From positions 1 to 44,655 of the forward strand of contig JADFXV010000017.1 of the NCBI GenBank assembly GCA_015233395.1: DNA of 44,655 bases. The letters are read 5' to 3'. Position numbers and translations under genes: made by a program. The notes under the pieces are model-generated. The model ran no database searches, was not told the DNA's origin, and saw nothing but the letters and a program-made list of their open reading frames with translations. Source of the DNA: Desulfovibrionaceae bacterium (GTDB lineage Bacteria; Desulfobacterota; Desulfovibrionia; Desulfovibrionales; Desulfovibrionaceae). Shown here piece after piece: positions 34,312 to 43,678 of this stretch (within the stretch, counting starts at the first letter, position 1; each line of letters starts with the position of its first letter).

Positions 34312-34695
34312 TCAGATCCGGCCGGCGATGGCCTCGTGGATGCGCCGCGAAGCGAGCTCGTCGCCGAAATAGCCGACCTTGACCGAAACGAACACGAAGC
34401 CCTGTTTGCTGTCTTCGATGTCGATCCAAAACGGACTGCCGCCGTCCTTGCCGGTGAGCGAGGCCGAGGATGTCCCCTTTTCCGTTTTGTCCACTTTCAG
34501 GGCGAGGTCTTCGGCGGCGCTGCCGGCCGCCCGGTACGCCTTGTCCAGGCTGACCGGATAGTCCTTTTTGAGCCAGCCGGTGACATAGGTGTAAGTGCCC
34601 CCCGCAGCCAGGGAGCCGGCCACGACTGCGGCGCAGCCGCACAGGCACAGGGCCAGGGCCAGGGCGGCGAGCGCCCGGAGCCGGTATCGCGTCAT
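34312..34695 (-). CDS. DUF3568-like lipoprotein
   Basis: A 127-aa predicted lipoprotein: signal peptide with a basic start (MTRYRLR), hydrophobic core and lipobox LCGC (Cys at about residue 21). The body resembles DUF3568 proteins: VTGWLKKDYPVSLDKAYRAAG, then a compact beta-alpha fold with FWIDIEDSKQGFVFVSVKVGYFGDE. DUF3568 has no assigned function. The ATG at 34695 is favoured by GGGAGG 6 nt upstream. It is the last gene of the export-like cluster, 59 nt after the M50 protein, so a role near the outer membrane or periplasm alongside it is inferred. Confidence 0.7.
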   Translation of the reverse strand: MTRYRLRALAALALALCLCGCAAVVAGSLAAGGTYTYVTGWLKKDYPVSLDKAYRAAGSAAEDLALKVDKTEKGTSSASLTGKDGGSPFWIDIEDSKQGFVFVSVKVGYFGDELASRRIHEAIAGRI

Positions 34696-34754
34696 GATGT
34701 CCTCCCGGTAATTACGAGAGCGCAAAAGGTTTCGCCGGGCCGGCCAAGCCGGGG

Positions 34755-36872
34755 TCAAAAGCTCAGCTCGCGCACGACGGTCCGGTACAGGCGCCGACCG
34801 GCGTCCGCCAGGTGCGAACGGGGACTGGTGGTCAGCCAGACCACGCCGGTTTGGCCGATCCGCGCGCCGCGCGGCTGTTTGGCCAGGACGATCTCCAGGG
34901 TGTAATAGCTCTCCAGCATCACGAGTTTGCCCCGTGGTTCCTTGATGACCGGAAAAGCACCCTGGGCCTGCGAAGTCAAGCCCAGATAGTCAATGGTTTC
35001 GGCCCGGACCGGATAGACGGCCTTGATCGTCCCGGCCGCCGTTTCCCCGCCGGCGTCGGAAAAAAAGACCGCCCGGTCGCCGAGAGCCACGCCGCCGACC
35101 ATATCTTCTTGGACAAAGGCGTGCAATTTGAAATCGTCCAGGTCGGCCAGCCGGCCCAGAAGTTGCTGGTGCGCCACGGGCAGGCCGTTGCGCAGGTTTT
35201 CGTCCCAGGCGTACATGACGCCGTCGATCTCCGCGATCTGGCGGCTTTGCTCGCGCTGGCCGAGCAGGGAAGCGAGCTTGGCGTCGATATTGGCGATTTC
35301 CTCGTCCTGCTGCGGCAAAAACGCCTTGTCGCGCTCGTCGAGCAGGTACATGTCGCGGCGTTTTTCCATGATCCGCTTTTCCAGGTCGAGCACGGCGATG
35401 TCCTGGTCGAGCCTGTCGGAATGGATGCTGGAGACGGCCGTTCCCTTGGCGACGCGGCTGCCCCGGCCGGCGGCGACGCCTTGGAGTTCGCCCGGAAACG
35501 GGGCGTAGACGGCCAGATTTTTGGCCGCGACCAGCACCGCCGGCACGCTGATGCGGCGCGGCAGCGGCAGCGCCGCCCACAAAAACGCAACCCCCAGGAC
35601 GGCCGCCAAAAGCAGGTTGCGGCGGTTTACGCCGGTCGTTTTGCGCAGCTGGAGCCAAACTCTGGCCTCGCCCCACAGCGGCGCCACGAGGAACCAGCCG
35701 ATCTCCACGCAAAAGAGAAAAATGCCCAGCACCTTGGTGAACTTGTGATACACCAGGACGGCGATGCCCAGGTACAACCCCAGCCGGTAGAGCCAGGTGT
35801 AGGCGGTGTAAACGAGCGCCAGGGTAAGCGCGCGGCCGCGGATGTCCGGATCGGGCGAGGGGGCGTCGACGCCGAGCAGCCATTTGCGGGCGAACCACCG
35901 GGTCAGGGCGAAGGCGCGGGGCTGGAGATTGTCGATGCCCGTCAGATCCATGAGCAGGAAATAGCCGTCGAAACGCATGGCCGGATTGATGTTGACCAGG
36001 ATCGTGGACAAAATCGAGGAGGAGGAGATCACGAAAAAAACGCCGTGGAGCACGCCCGTCCCGGTCAAGGCCCAGCCGGTCAGGGCCATGCCCGCGATGG
36101 CCAGTTCGGCGATCATGCCGGCGGCGGTGATGGCCAGGCGCTTGCGCCGGTCGGCGATCTTCCAGGCGTCCGTCACGTCGCAATAGGCCACCGGCCACAT
36201 GACGATGAAGGCCAGACCCATGACCGGCACGCGCAGCCCCAAGCTTTTGGCGGTGAAGGCGTGGCTGAATTCGTGCACGGCCTTGATCGCGGCCACGCAC
36301 AGGCCGAAGGCGAACAGTCCCTGGAAGTTGAAAAAATAGTTGAAGGTGGAAAAGTATTCGTCCAGGCGCTCCAGGCACATCGCAAGCCCGGCCAGGGCGA
36401 TCAGGGCGTAAACGCCAAGCGCCGGGCGCGAGGCGAGCAGTCTGGCCCTGGGCAGGGCGCGGGTCAAAAAGGCGTCGGGCCGGAGAATCGGGACGCGGAA
36501 ATACAGATAGTGGTGCAAAAGCCATTGCAGCGGGTGGATCCGGGCGCGTTCGTATTCGGACAAAAGCTCTTCGGGCGGCCGGGTCAGGGTTTGGGTGGTC
36601 AGCCCTTTTTTGACCGCCTCCATGCAAAATTCGGCCACGTCCCGCCCGGTGACGCGCAGGGTCGTGTTGCGCTCGAGCGCGGCCAGCAGGCTTCCGAGGG
36701 TCGTTGGCCGGCGCAGCCTGGCGAACACCTCGGCCTCGGCCCAGCCGATCTTGTCGAACGTGCGCATCAGGGGATCGTGGACGGTGTAGGTGGGCGAGCC
36801 GTCGGGCGCCGCCGGCCCCTGGTGGACCTCGATGTCGGGCCGCAAGACGGGCAGCTCGGTATCCGGATTCAT
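34755..36872 (-). CDS. M50 site-2-protease-like membrane protein fused to HlyD-type adaptor
   Basis: A 705-aa protein. Residues about 20-105 form a small winged-helix-like segment, possibly PqqD-like. Membrane helices flank HEFSH (200-204), the HExxH metal site of M50 proteases, and NPAMRFDGY (296-304) supplies the usual third ligand, Asp302. Further helices reach about residue 445. A periplasmic part then has the lipoyl-like half (VYAPFPGELQGVAAGRGSRVAKGT), a coiled-coil hairpin (EKRIMEKRRDMYLLDERDKAFLP) and the beta-barrel strand (AVYPVRAE). Related proteins are annotated peptide zinc metalloprotease or efflux component. It lies 9 nt after the GAF adaptor. The metal site looks intact; whether it cleaves protein or forms a channel is unknown. 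Confidence 0.8.
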   Translation of the reverse strand: MNPDTELPVLRPDIEVHQGPAAPDGSPTYTVHDPLMRTFDKIGWAEAEVFARLRRPTTLGSLLAALERNTTLRVTGRDVAEFCMEAVKKGLTTQTLTRPPEELLSEYERARIHPLQWLLHHYLYFRVPILRPDAFLTRALPRARLLASRPALGVYALIALAGLAMCLERLDEYFSTFNYFFNFQGLFAFGLCVAAIKAVHEFSHAFTAKSLGLRVPVMGLAFIVMWPVAYCDVTDAWKIADRRKRLAITAAGMIAELAIAGMALTGWALTGTGVLHGVFFVISSSSILSTILVNINPAMRFDGYFLLMDLTGIDNLQPRAFALTRWFARKWLLGVDAPSPDPDIRGRALTLALVYTAYTWLYRLGLYLGIAVLVYHKFTKVLGIFLFCVEIGWFLVAPLWGEARVWLQLRKTTGVNRRNLLLAAVLGVAFLWAALPLPRRISVPAVLVAAKNLAVYAPFPGELQGVAAGRGSRVAKGTAVSSIHSDRLDQDIAVLDLEKRIMEKRRDMYLLDERDKAFLPQQDEEIANIDAKLASLLGQREQSRQIAEIDGVMYAWDENLRNGLPVAHQQLLGRLADLDDFKLHAFVQEDMVGGVALGDRAVFFSDAGGETAAGTIKAVYPVRAETIDYLGLTSQAQGAFPVIKEPRGKLVMLESYYTLEIVLAKQPRGARIGQTGVVWLTTSPRSHLADAGRRLYRTVVRELSF

Positions 36873-39046: not shown

Positions 39047-41197
39047 CTAGCCCTCTTTCTTCACGGAAATGAGCAACCCGCCGTCCGCCGTTTCGATCAC
39101 CGGCGCGAACCGGCGCCAGTTTGCGTCCGACTCGTTGAACTCCAGGGCCAGGCCAAGCGCGTCCCGGCTCTGATCGACATGCACCGCCGTAATGTACTCT
39201 CCGTCGCCTGCGTACTTGATGAAGGGATTCTTGGCGACCCACCTGCCGCCGACATGGAACACGAGTCTGGGGGGATTGTCGAGGTATTCCCAAGTGGTCT
39301 CGCCGGGCTTGCGCATGGTTTTGATGTTCACGGCCACGAGGCCCGGTTTTTCCGAAAGCGTCAGGCTGCGCAGTCCGCCGTAGGCGTTGATGGTGACGTC
39401 TCTGGACCCGGTCTGGGCGGGCTGGACGGCCTTGGCCTCGGACCCGGCCGCAGTGGACTGGGCGGGCTGGACGGCCTTGGTCTCGGACCCGGCCGGGGCG
39501 CGGTTTTTTTGCACGGGCTCGACCGCGATCGTGAGTTCCGGCGGCTCCTGGGCCGAGGGGGCCTGCGTGGCCGCGAGCTCCGCGTCTGCCGGTCCGGCGG
39601 GCGTTTGCCGGGCCTTGGCCGCGGCCAGGGTGGGGGCGGCGTTCTCGGAGGTCAGGGGGCCTGCTGGCTGGCCGCCCCAGTCGCGGCCGAGCGAATTGTC
39701 GAGCCTGGCCAGGGCGATCAGCGCGCCGGCGTAGTTGGTCAGGTGCTGCACCCGGGCGTTCAGGTAACGCTGATCTTCGTCGAGCAGCATGCTTTCGCGC
39801 AGTTTCCCGGTGCGCACCTGTTCGCGCACGGCCTCCAGGAGCTCGAAGCGCTCCTTGACCAGATCGCCGGCCAGCTGCAGCCGGTCGGTGGTCTCGTTGT
39901 ATTCGATGATCGAAAGCCGGACCTGGGTCAGGACCGACAAGGCGATCTTCATGCGCCGCTTGGCCGCCAGATCGGCCTGTTGCTTGGCGGTGAAGCGTTC
40001 GTACATCAGCCTCGGGACGGAGAACAGGTCGAACGACAGCTTGACGCCGATGATATACCAGTCGTTTTTGCTCAGATATTTGTTGGAATCGTAGGAATAG
40101 CGGATGTACGGCGTGACCGAGGGGAACATCTGCATGAAGGCGGCGTCCGCGTCCTGCTGGGAGATCTTTTGCTCGATGTCCTGCTGAAAGAGTTCCGGGC
40201 GCTTGCTTAAGGCCTCGCCTTCGAGCGCGGCGATGTCAAAACGCCTGGGCTTCGGATCGCGCGAAAGGTCCATGTCCTTGATGTCGGCCATGTCTTCGGG
40301 TTTGAGCCCGAGCAGCTCGGAGAGTTCGGTCATGGCCGAGCGGTAGTCGCTGGAATAGGTCTTCAGGCGCAGCATCATTTCGGTGATGCCGGCGTCGCTT
40401 TGCAGGCCGTCGACCTTCGAGAGCGTGCCCTCGGCGATCTGCTTTTTGATGATTTCGCGGCGCTTGCGGCCCTCGTCGAGCAGGGCCTGGGCGTGGCTGG
40501 CGGCGTCCTTGGACACGGCCGCCTTGAGATAGGCCCGGGTGACGTTTAAGGCGATGTCCTGTTTGGCCCGGCGCAGGCGCTCGGCGGCGATGTCGGCCCG
40601 GCCCTCGCTTTGCCGCCAGCGCACGATGTTCACGCCCAGGTTGAGCAGGTCCCAGGACAGGCCGGCGTTGTAGGTGAAGGAATTGAGTTCCGAGGAAATC
40701 GAGGGCTCAAGGGACACCTGGCGGGTGTAGAGGCTGATGGACGTGCTGCCCACGTCCCAGGATTTCTGGCTGCGGTCGGCGTCGATGAGCAGGTTGGGCA
40801 GGAGCCGGTATTTGGCGCCGGTGACCATTTCTTCCTGCACGGACTTTTCCTGGGCCGCGACCAGCTTGTCCAGGTTGCGCTCCAGGGCGAAGGACACCGC
40901 GTCATCCAGGCCTAGGGGGGAATTCGGTTTGAGCGGGACCTTGGGAGCGCCGGGAGCGCCGGGCGCGGGAGCCTCGGCAAGACCCTTGGCCTTGGACGAT
41001 TTGGCGGCAGGGGTCTTGTAGGCCTCCGGTTCGCGGATCTGCTCGACATCCTTGCGGGCGTTCTCCTGCCGCAGGGCCTCGCGGTCCTTCTCGGCCAGGC
41101 AGCCTGGAAGGAGCAGGGCAACGGCCAGGACGGCAAGATAGACAATTCGGCGTCCTGTTCCATGAGCGCCAAGCAGATGCAGAGAGGTTATTTTCAT
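39047..41197 (-). CDS. TolC-family outer-membrane factor lipoprotein with C-terminal AMIN-like domain
   Basis: A 716-aa protein. The signal peptide ends in lipobox LPGC (Cys33), so it is a lipoprotein. Residues about 95-500 are an outer-membrane efflux (OEP) domain with the typical coiled-coil halves (LGLDDAVSFALERNLDKL, ARKLREIIKKQ-like RRKREIIKKQIAEGTLSKVD, SIIEYNETTDRLQLAGDLVKERFEL). A Pro/Ala-rich linker (about 505-595) carries a 45-bp duplicated unit. The last 115 residues (DVTINAYGGLRSLTLSEKPG, PPRLVFHVGGRW, FAPVIETADGGLLISVKK) look like an AMIN domain, which binds peptidoglycan. The ATG at 41197 is used because GGCGGGAA precedes it; an earlier TTG adds 11 residues. First gene of the cluster. 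Confidence 0.8.
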   Translation of the reverse strand: MKITSLHLLGAHGTGRRIVYLAVLAVALLLPGCLAEKDREALRQENARKDVEQIREPEAYKTPAAKSSKAKGLAEAPAPGAPGAPKVPLKPNSPLGLDDAVSFALERNLDKLVAAQEKSVQEEMVTGAKYRLLPNLLIDADRSQKSWDVGSTSISLYTRQVSLEPSISSELNSFTYNAGLSWDLLNLGVNIVRWRQSEGRADIAAERLRRAKQDIALNVTRAYLKAAVSKDAASHAQALLDEGRKRREIIKKQIAEGTLSKVDGLQSDAGITEMMLRLKTYSSDYRSAMTELSELLGLKPEDMADIKDMDLSRDPKPRRFDIAALEGEALSKRPELFQQDIEQKISQQDADAAFMQMFPSVTPYIRYSYDSNKYLSKNDWYIIGVKLSFDLFSVPRLMYERFTAKQQADLAAKRRMKIALSVLTQVRLSIIEYNETTDRLQLAGDLVKERFELLEAVREQVRTGKLRESMLLDEDQRYLNARVQHLTNYAGALIALARLDNSLGRDWGGQPAGPLTSENAAPTLAAAKARQTPAGPADAELAATQAPSAQEPPELTIAVEPVQKNRAPAGSETKAVQPAQSTAAGSEAKAVQPAQTGSRDVTINAYGGLRSLTLSEKPGLVAVNIKTMRKPGETTWEYLDNPPRLVFHVGGRWVAKNPFIKYAGDGEYITAVHVDQSRDALGLALEFNESDANWRRFAPVIETADGGLLISVKKEG
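39413..39495. repeat. 38-bp direct repeat in the TolC-like gene linker
   Basis: CTGGGCGGGCTGGACGGCCT followed by TGGCCTCGGACCCGGCCG occurs at 39413-39450 and, with one mismatch, at 39458-39495 (period 45 bp). It encodes duplicated SEAKAVQPAQ-like units. Confidence 0.85.
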
Positions 41198-41357: not shown

Positions 41358-41386
41358 TTGACAATGTCTCCCGGAAGTTGGATAGT
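41358..41386 (+). promoter_or_regulatory. Candidate sigma-70 promoter of the cyclase gene
   Basis: TTGACA (41358-41363, perfect), 17 nt, GATAGT (41381-41386, 4/6). It lies 54 nt before the cyclase ATG at 41441. Confidence 0.65.
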
Positions 41387-41440
41387 GCAATATTCGACGC
41401 ACTTGGGTCAAAACGTTTCGTTGCGACAAAGGACGACGCC

Positions 41441-43678
41441 ATGGCCGCATTCAGTTTTCACAGCGTTTGGAGCGCCCTGAAGGAATATTTCAAGGGCAGA
41501 TTCGGCATCTTTCTGGCCGGCGCGGCGATTACCGCCGGCATGGCGCTGCTCTACGCCATCCAGCCTACCTGGATGGAGTCCCAAGACAACATGATCTACG
41601 ATTTTTTACTTCGCTCCCGGGGTTCCACCCCGGTTTCCGGGCAAGTGGTCCTTGTGGACATCGACGAGAAAAGCCTGGCGAAACTCGGCCAGTGGCCTTG
41701 GCCGCGCTACCGGCTCACGCTCCTGCTCGGCCAGATGCGCCAGGCCGGGGCCAGGGCCGTGGCCATGGACATGCTCCTGGCTGAACCGGACCGCACCTCG
41801 CCCGTCCTGCTGGAACGCCAGTTCAAGGACGAACTCAATTTCGACGTGTCCTTCAGCGGCCTGCCCGATCCCTTCCGCGACAACGACCAGGTTTTGGCCA
41901 AGATGCTCTCTCGCGGCCCGTTCGTCCTGTCGTATTATTTCGATTTTTCCGGCACGGGCGAGAAGTCGGCCTGCCGCTTGCCCGCCTCTCCCTTTTCCGT
42001 GGCCGGGCGCCAGGGAGCGGTCGCGCCGGCCGAAGCCGCCATGAACGCGTCCAACGTGCTCTGCCCGCTGCCGGTGCTGCTCGACTCGGCCACGGCCGCC
42101 GGATTTATGAACACCATCCCGGACAGCGACAACGTCATCCGCAGGCTGCCGCTGGTCATCGCCTATAACGGCGCGGTCTATCCCAGCCTGGCCTTGGCCG
42201 CGGCCATGCGCGGCCTGGGGGCGACCGGCCGCGAACTCGCCGGCGCGGAAGCCGGACTCAAATCCCTGAAGCTCTCCGGTCCGTTCGGCGAAAAAACCAT
42301 TCCCCTGGACGCCAGGGGAATGCTCCTGCTCAACTACCGGGGACGGGGCGGAATCTACCCGCGTCTGAGCGCCTGCGACGTGCTTTCCGGCGAAGTGGAC
42401 AAAAGCGCCCTGGAAGGCAAAACGGTCATTTTCGGCTCGACCGCCGTGGGCATGCAGGACATCCGGGCCACGCCGCTCGACCGGGCCACGCCCGGAGCCG
42501 AGATCCAGGCCACGGTCGTGGACATGATCCTGACCAACGACTACATTCTGCGGCCGGACTGGGCCCCGGCCCTGGAGTTTTGCCTGGTCCTGGCCATGGG
42601 CCTGCTCTCGGCCGTGCTGCTGTCGCGGGCCAAGGGCCTGTGGCTGATAGCCACCCTGGCCGGCCTGGGGCTTGCGATGTGGTTCGGCGCGGCCCAGACG
42701 CTCAAAACGCACAAGCTCTTCATCCAGCCGCTCTATCCCCTGGCCGTTTTGCTCCTCAACTTCGTCCTGCTGACCGTGTTCAAATTCTGGCGCGAGGAAC
42801 GCCAGCGCCGCTTCATCCATTCCGCCTTCGCCCATTACCTCTCGCCCAAGGTCGTCGACCAGATCGTGCAGTCGCCCGACAAGCTCAACCTGACCGGCGA
42901 GGAGCGTGAAATCTCCATCCTGTTTTCCGACATCCGGGGGTTCACCTCCATCTCGGAAAAACTCTCCCCGACCCAGCTGGTGGACCTGCTCCACGAATAC
43001 CTGACCCCCATGACCCACACCATCACCGAACACCTGGGCACCCTCGACAAATATATCGGCGACGCCATCATGGCCTTCTGGAACGCGCCGCTGGACGTGG
43101 CCAACCACCGCGCCGAAGCGCTGGCGGCGGGCCTGGACATGATCGAGCGGCTCGGCGAACTCAATACGGTCTTTGCGGCGAAATACGGCCAGACCCTGAA
43201 AGTGGGCGTGGGCCTCAACTGCGGCTTTGTGCGCGTGGGCAACTTCGGCTCGCAGGACCTCTTCAGCTACACCATCATCGGCGACAACGTGAACCTGTGC
43301 TCGCGGCTCGAAGGCCTGACCAAATACTACGGCCTGACGCTCGTGGCCGGCGAAGGCATGGTCCATCCGTCCACCGCCGGATTTCATTTCCAGGAAGTCG
43401 ACAGCGTCCTGGTCAAGGGCAAACACGAACCCGTGACCATCTATTCCGTCATGCACCCGGCCGAACGCGACCGCCGCGCCGAGGAACTCGACCTGGCCGG
43501 CAAAGCCCTGGCCAGATACAAGTCCCGGGATTTCGCCGCCTCGCTCGCAAGCTTCACCGACCTGGAAACGCGCTTCGGGGCGCGACTGTATTCGCTCTAC
43601 AAGGAACGCTGCCAAACCCTGATCGCCACCCCGCCGCCGGCGGAGTGGAACGGCGTGTTCGAACACCTGACAAAGTAA
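41441..43678 (+). CDS. CHASE2-domain adenylate cyclase (class III)
   Basis: A 745-aa membrane sensor predicted to make cAMP. An N-terminal helix (about 21-40), a periplasmic CHASE2 domain (about 45-365; VLVDIDEKSLAKLGQWPWPRYR, ATPLDRATPGAEIQATVVDM), three more membrane helices (about 372-450), then a class III cyclase domain (about 470-680). Catalytic residues are intact: Asp497 (FSDIRGFTS), Asp541 with Lys537 (LDKYIGDAIMAF), and IIGDNVNLCSRLEG with the Asp, Asn and Arg. The Lys and Asp in those positions favour ATP over GTP. About 60 helical residues follow. The ATG at 41441 is chosen because AAAGGA precedes it. Divergent from the export cluster. Confidence 0.92.
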   Translation: MAAFSFHSVWSALKEYFKGRFGIFLAGAAITAGMALLYAIQPTWMESQDNMIYDFLLRSRGSTPVSGQVVLVDIDEKSLAKLGQWPWPRYRLTLLLGQMRQAGARAVAMDMLLAEPDRTSPVLLERQFKDELNFDVSFSGLPDPFRDNDQVLAKMLSRGPFVLSYYFDFSGTGEKSACRLPASPFSVAGRQGAVAPAEAAMNASNVLCPLPVLLDSATAAGFMNTIPDSDNVIRRLPLVIAYNGAVYPSLALAAAMRGLGATGRELAGAEAGLKSLKLSGPFGEKTIPLDARGMLLLNYRGRGGIYPRLSACDVLSGEVDKSALEGKTVIFGSTAVGMQDIRATPLDRATPGAEIQATVVDMILTNDYILRPDWAPALEFCLVLAMGLLSAVLLSRAKGLWLIATLAGLGLAMWFGAAQTLKTHKLFIQPLYPLAVLLLNFVLLTVFKFWREERQRRFIHSAFAHYLSPKVVDQIVQSPDKLNLTGEEREISILFSDIRGFTSISEKLSPTQLVDLLHEYLTPMTHTITEHLGTLDKYIGDAIMAFWNAPLDVANHRAEALAAGLDMIERLGELNTVFAAKYGQTLKVGVGLNCGFVRVGNFGSQDLFSYTIIGDNVNLCSRLEGLTKYYGLTLVAGEGMVHPSTAGFHFQEVDSVLVKGKHEPVTIYSVMHPAERDRRAEELDLAGKALARYKSRDFAASLASFTDLETRFGARLYSLYKERCQTLIATPPPAEWNGVFEHLTK

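Follow-up and report, generated by a model that had tools for sequence, protein, structure and literature searches.

In a 2021 review, tripartite exporters are built on ABC, RND and MFS pumps only (PMC8277102). The tripartite and type I systems exemplified by HlyB-HlyD-TolC and LapEBC place TolC and HlyD- or RND-type adaptors next to a giant adhesin, and the same arrangement characterizes the module described here, which was identified in a window of 44,655 nucleotides representing one contig of the 3.4-Mb genome (G000) of a member of the Desulfovibrionaceae. Different from those systems, the module contains no ABC, RND or MFS pump, its inner-membrane parts are a site-2 protease fused to an HlyD-type adaptor (S2P-HlyD) and a GAF-adaptor protein, and the tag common to its giant proteins is N-terminal. 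Because the channel and the adaptors are of known kinds, it can be regarded as a variant of tripartite envelope export. In Gram-positives, large adhesins are exported by accessory Sec (SecA2) systems. The N-terminal LEPR-XLL domain has been named in passing in a Vibrio giant of ~8000 amino acids (PMC10868602), and neither a function nor an export route for it was found in the open-licence literature searched. The same literature yielded no description of S2P-HlyD fusions or of their link to giant proteins, although descriptions elsewhere could exist. A Moraxella bacteriocin system that it did yield is an ordinary HlyB/HlyD case, "M50" being there a piece of a DOI.

The operon comprises, from 5' to 3', the genes for a TolC-family channel, an RND-type adaptor, a GAF-TM-HlyD protein, the S2P-HlyD fusion in fourth position and a DUF3568 lipoprotein, with intergenic gaps of 12 nt or less or small overlaps (Table 1), and the module formed by the first four recurs among relatives. 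The RND-type adaptor starts with a hydrophobic, signal-like segment; the GAF domain of the third protein is weak in the window (GAF_2, 0.007) and clear in homologues. The DUF3568 gene was not seen next to homologues, and its membership of the module is uncertain. The TolC protein carries ~210 additional C-terminal residues (within 39047-40000, minus strand) with no Pfam match, AMIN-like by eye, and a CHASE2-domain adenylate cyclase gene (41378-43678, plus strand), a possible regulator, is divergent from the operon. No match emerged when the window was scanned for Rfam families and tRNAs.

Table 1. Features of the S2P-HlyD operon in the window
Feature	Coordinates	Strand	Basis
TolC-family outer membrane channel, 727 aa	39047..41230	-	PF02321, 5.8e-30
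RND-type periplasmic adaptor, 258 aa	38258..39034	-	TIGR01730 above cut-off; HlyD_3, HlyD_D23
GAF-like domain, one TM helix and HlyD adaptor, 457 aa	36882..38255	-	HlyD_3, 6e-11
RRE-S2P-HlyD fusion, 705 aa	34755..36872	-	ATG start; PF02163 and HlyD_3 above cut-off; family alignment
RRE/PqqD-like N-domain, ~residues 6-95	36588..36857	-	Homologue PqqD matches; 3g2b by profile; model and fold match
Membrane site-2 protease part, ~residues 150-438	35559..36425	-	PF02163; NF041824; hydropathy
HEFSH zinc motif, residues 200-204	36261..36275	-	H200, E201 and H204 invariant in 26 homologues
NPAMRFDGY second metal-site motif, residues 296-304	35961..35987	-	P297 and D302 invariant
HlyD/MacA-type periplasmic adaptor, ~residues 441-680	34833..35552	-	Pfam, family profile, model, Foldseek
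DUF3568 lipoprotein-like gene	34312..34758	-	PF12092, 3e-29; overlaps S2P stop by 4 nt

With Pfam and NCBIfam, no ABC, RND or MFS pump gene was detected in the operon, and no ABC exporter that could act as inner-membrane pump is present in it or among the conserved neighbours of relatives. The TolC and RND-type adaptor annotations would agree with a small-molecule or metal efflux system, to which giant proteins are associated passively via shared islands. We consider such a system extremely improbable, given that the pump gene is absent, that the protease site is invariant and that, as reported below, tag and fusion co-occur genome by genome in three phyla and in matched subtypes.

The fusion gene occupies exactly the position indicated by the earlier note, as an uninterrupted reading frame from its ATG. 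In the Pfam scan of the window protein, both Peptidase_M50 (PF02163, 31 versus 27.2 bits) and HlyD_3 (26 versus 22.2 bits) score above their gathering thresholds, while HlyD_D23 remains under its cut-off; when the single window sequence was compared with the PDB by phmmer, no useful match was obtained. About 26 full-length relatives were retrieved from the 99 family and 297 phylum genomes searched. Shorter S2P proteins (L044 and L060 to L065, 408 to 470 aa), lacking the HlyD part, occur in other genomes; several of them have a PqqD-like N terminus and are possibly daptide-like relatives. Hydropathy analysis indicates that ~7 membrane helices separate the N-domain from the adaptor. The N-domain would then be cytoplasmic and the adaptor periplasmic, a topology based on hydropathy and on a model in which the membrane region has low confidence. 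Since the full-length model has a mean pLDDT of 57, only its adaptor part was used.

As for the protease, the earlier note had described the HEFSH and NPAMRFDGY metal-site motifs as intact, and both are present, with H200, E201, H204, N294, P297 and D302 unchanged across 26 aligned homologues. The HExxH and the distant NPxxxxD halves of the metal site lie in membrane helices, as in M50 proteases, and the family profile retrieves MjS2P (3b4r, 2.3e-4) and RseP (7w6x, 0.014) from the PDB. S2P-HlyD is thus a candidate active protease on the grounds of its invariant active-site residues. Among characterized families, the S2P core is shared with the daptide protease NF041824, whose profile covers residues 102-388 (E value of 7e-40) and also matches 2 of the 26 homologue N termini, and with the YydH/LiaK epipeptide protease, whose NCBIfam profile matches at 9.5e-5. 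Different from the daptide and epipeptide proteases, the window protein stays below the equivalog cut-offs (137.3 versus 300 bits for NF041824), is fused to an HlyD adaptor and has no RiPP genes nearby.

The adaptor part downstream of the membrane region, proposed in the earlier note, was recovered by the HlyD comparison: the best match of the family profile in the PDB is MacA (4dk1, E value of 4.9e-19), and the model of this part, with pLDDT values mostly between 65 and 90 over residues 441-620, matches membrane-fusion proteins in Foldseek, with E. coli MacA at 3e-13. Both comparisons indicate the lipoyl, hairpin and barrel fold of HlyD/MFP adaptors. The joining of protease and adaptor in one protein is likewise borne out, with an intact conserved site and with genes for TolC and two further adaptors alongside. 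From the architecture, it would be fair to read the protein, as the earlier note did, as placing the catalytic site of the protease inside the duct itself.

At the N terminus, a winged-helix-like segment possibly resembling PqqD/RRE domains had been suspected, and it proved to be real. The Pfam profile PqqD (PF05402) matches 9 of the 26 homologue N termini at an E value of ≤1 (best, 9e-5), and other homologue N termini match PqqD-type NCBIfam models. The window N-domain alone has no PqqD match in Pfam, where it hits a chance family only; it is too divergent for that profile, and its assignment therefore depends on its relatives and on the model. In the PDB, a profile of the homologue N termini retrieves PqqD (3g2b, 3.7e-4) and, more weakly, two lasso RREs, TbiB1 and TfuB1 (0.14), values to be read with the fact that some designed repeat proteins score similarly on a helical stretch. 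The model of residues 1-105 (mean pLDDT of 73.6) shows three strands followed by three helices, the winged fold of known RREs, and its nearest solved structures are TfuB1 and TbiB1, both with leader peptides, TigE and PqqD (Z scores of 9.1-10.1 over 82-91 residues). This model was built from 3 sequences and was the only good one of five (73.6 versus 40-47 for the others), so that we placed weight on the agreement between profile and fold. Two residues of the N-domain, R11 and D33, are nearly invariant and are candidates for contacting the tag. The N-domain thus has its fold in common with the leader-binding proteins TfuB1, TbiB1 and PqqD (Z scores of 9-10, 82-86 residues) but, different from them, it is fused to a membrane protease, and its presumed target is the N terminus of a giant protein instead of a RiPP leader.

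The RRE fold of the N-domain and the matches of the protease core to the daptide and YydH/LiaK families would also suit a RiPP-type exporter-protease, with a small modified peptide that is bound by the RRE, trimmed of its leader by the S2P and released through the TolC duct. This is quite improbable in our judgment, as the scores are far under the equivalog cut-offs, neither peptide precursor genes nor genes for radical SAM or other modifying enzymes occur among the conserved neighbours, which are genes for giants, TolC, adaptors, SecA-like proteins and DUF3467 proteins, and the genes of the window operon are packed so tightly, end to end or overlapping, that a small gene would not fit between them. 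The small peptide cargo suggested by the earlier note is not supported, and the cargo is probably of another kind: what accompanies the module are giant LEPR repeat proteins, not peptide precursors or modifying enzymes.

At many loci, a giant repeat protein, of up to ~15,000-16,000 aa and composed of cadherin, Ig and DUF4347 repeats, is encoded within or adjoining the module. Within approximately their first 10-60 residues, these proteins carry the tag LExRhhh[D/S], corresponding to the "LEPR-XLL" motif of NCBIfam; the model NF012209 (LEPR-8K) matches several of them, two above the cut-off and the others more weakly. The tag occurs in all 21 giants near the module that could be read from their start, 14 from the window's phylum and 7 from Pseudomonadota plasmids, a count that excludes the giant of C. 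metallidurans, whose start was unread. In the window's phylum, the first reading gave 12 of 12, to which the giants of G345 (9,795 aa) and G247 (15,080 aa) were added; 13 of these 14 are close by the module, and the giant of G112 is ~8 kb away. By comparison, the tag was found in the first 100 residues of none of the 360 other ORFs at these loci. Magnetospirillum MSR-1 has just a 493-aa remnant, which lacks the tag, as does a 1413-aa protein neighbouring the module in Phyllobacterium.

The tags of the seven Pseudomonadota giants are LESRQLFD (E. coli), LEPRMLFD (Kosakonia), LEPRFMFD (two Azospirillum giants), LEPRVVYD (Burkholderia anthina), LEPRMMFD (Niveispirillum) and LEARYMFD (Variovorax), and the order giant-TolC-adaptor-HlyD-S2P-HlyD is recurrent on these plasmids. 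Among complete E. coli genomes, 24 of 5,426 have the S2P gene, mostly plasmid-borne and nearly identical, and the module is also present on plasmids of Citrobacter, Azospirillum and Cupriavidus. The E. coli plasmid NZ_CP081687.1 (L147/L153, 44829-64580) holds a complete module together with the giant tagged LESRQLFD. In A. brasilense (L156, 435-12979), the giant is distributed over two overlapping ORFs, one with DUF4347 (799 aa) and one Ig-like (3384 aa), through a frameshift, a sequencing error or a natural split. Genes annotated as "tail fiber protein" recur by the giant/S2P module on Pseudomonadota plasmids (L151, 12134-14241; L156, 14374-15001; L161, 4010-4501; L157, 3445-4059). A single relative emerged from the viral-contig scans. 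At locus L146 (IMG/VR contig 3300022658_000180), the GAF-HlyD and S2P-HlyD genes adjoin apparent phage lysis and structural genes, so that this copy of the module may be part of a prophage or lie next to one.

The LEPR N termini mostly have no strongly hydrophobic stretch, and hence they resemble neither ordinary Sec signal peptides nor membrane helices; their weak hydrophobicity fits a putative special recognition domain. At the opposite end, a motif of the form ~xP[SAGT][LF]xxQ[LIV], picked by eye, is found in 8 of 16 giants of type A (the window's subtype, defined below) versus 0.2 in shuffles, and its being common to many type A giants is taken as a lead only. Considering the RTX-adhesin-like repeat architecture of the giants, it is conceivable that they leave the cell by a type I (ABC) or other route and that the S2P module is an accessory, acting as a release protease, a quality-control protease or a secretion-reporting sensor. 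An accessory role would equally yield the genomic linkage, and in Phyllobacterium a type I ABC system lies ~5 kb from the module. Yet the conserved neighbours include TolC and two adaptors but no ABC exporter; one would hardly expect an accessory to bring along the entire outer half of an export system, and many giants end in the above type of motif, with no obvious RTX end. On balance, we regard the accessory role as unlikely.

Since NF012209 is too short to score the giant of the window's genome above the cut-off, whole genomes were searched with a profile (A3) of 13 tagged N termini from giants beside the module. In the family set (99 genomes), 9 genomes are tagged at an E value of <1e-3 and all 9 are positive for S2P-HlyD, no tag being found at this threshold in family genomes devoid of S2P-HlyD. 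In the phylum set (297 genomes), 8 of the 9 genomes tagged at an E value of <0.01 contain S2P-HlyD; the sole exception, G230, is 95% complete in 300 contigs. As the profile derives from giants beside the module, the family test is partly circular, and for this reason we relied on a phylum set from which the genomes that were sources of the profile had been removed (P = 8e-5) and on Chlorobia, which contributed no sequences to motif discovery or to the profile. Among 98 Chlorobia genomes, 9 have S2P-HlyD and 7 have the tag, every tagged genome also having S2P-HlyD (Fisher P = 2.6e-9), with giants of up to 15,320 aa in an open frame. These P values take no account of common descent inside each set, which makes the evidence look somewhat stronger than it is. 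A tag match is missing in nine genomes with S2P-HlyD (G029, G064, G201, G212, G297, G302, G373, G412 and G471), in some of them because of contig breaks and in some for no evident reason. The module is thus genomically linked to LEPR giants and co-occurs with them in Desulfobacterota-type, Chlorobia and Pseudomonadota genomes, a pattern that further speaks against a small peptide as the cargo.

Of the contigs that belong to the same genome as the window, C1 and C113 each break off within MSLRFMRLEDRIVLDGAA, an LEPR-type tag, and C95 contains a frame of at least 3242 aa, with two copies of DUF4347, a domain characteristic of such giants, that runs off the contig end. Tag and giant body are consequently on separate contigs, none of which is the window contig; they would belong to a putative LEPR giant, probably split by the assembly at repeats. 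A further tag match, on C55, was rejected because it lies 118 aa into a high-arginine frame and in this differs from the rest.

Two subtypes of the module could be recognized. In type B, a gene for a SecA-like ATPase lies directly 3' of the S2P gene, as observed in the window's phylum (8 loci) and in Chlorobia (5 of the 5 loci of this S2P type that were readable on that side). The encoded proteins (658-720 aa) consist of the motor domains only (SecA_DEAD, 1e-76 to 4e-102) and are ~40% identical to the housekeeping SecA of the window's genome over SecA residues ~56-680. A DUF3467 gene is present in 6 of the 8 SecA-like loci of the window's phylum; such genes encode ~107 aa and lie between giant and GAF-HlyD (e.g., L053, 13482-13799, and L041, 13052-13378), and their product is a candidate cytoplasmic partner of the giant. 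The window's type A module has no dedicated SecA-like gene, and the genome contains one SecA. Type B is similar to accessory Sec in that a giant adhesin is accompanied by a SecA-like ATPase of its own but, different from it, comprises the motor part only and is linked to TolC and S2P-HlyD, while type A departs from accessory Sec by the absence of the motor itself.

The tags differ accordingly in their last position, which is S in type B (LEQRILLS, LEKRILLS, LENRVLLS and LEPRILLS) and D, rarely E or A, in type A. In a tree of 46 S2P-HlyD proteins, one branch (100/98) separates the two tag classes; both S2P clans are present in both phyla, and in one Chlorobia genome, G399, the two S2P types occur together with the two types of tag. 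The D/S match is one ancient split, kept wherever the genes moved, and as a single split it does not amount to many independent events. The correspondence between machine and tag subtypes supports a putative matched recognition.

Taken together, we consider it likely that the operon encodes a machine dedicated to the export and processing of giant surface proteins with an N-terminal LEPR-XLL-type tag. It is possible to hypothesize that the cytoplasmic RRE-like domain would bind LExRhhh[D/S] in the way RREs bind peptide leaders, and that SecA would move the polypeptide across the inner membrane, the motor being the dedicated SecA-like protein in type B, whereas type A modules such as that of the window may use the housekeeping SecA. 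The S2P active site may then cut or gate the N terminus of the giant in the membrane, and the two membrane-anchored HlyD parts, together with the free adaptor, would link this site to TolC; with the adaptors joining protease site and channel, the giant could reach the surface in one step. Site-2 proteases usually cut transmembrane segments, and the lack of such a segment in most LEPR N termini, as judged from their sequence, would count against S2P cleavage of the tag. The more specific proposal of a secretion pathway of its own kind, in which the RRE reads the tag, SecA or the SecA-like protein feeds the TolC duct, the tag is cleaved and no ABC pump takes part, is advanced as a tentative one, to which we give slightly less than an even chance.

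If the reading of the tag, its cleavage and pump-free export hold true, the module would represent a class of its own, RREs, so far associated with peptide natural products, would be seen to serve in protein secretion as well, and the LEPR-XLL domain would gain its function. The proteins concerned are some of the largest of bacteria, here of ~15,000-16,000 aa, and their export route has so far been unassigned. With one protease gene, one tag and one adhesin, the tag would be tied to one specific machine, which makes the proposal testable, and, since the module is carried by plasmids of E. coli, Citrobacter, Azospirillum and Cupriavidus, tractable organisms exist.
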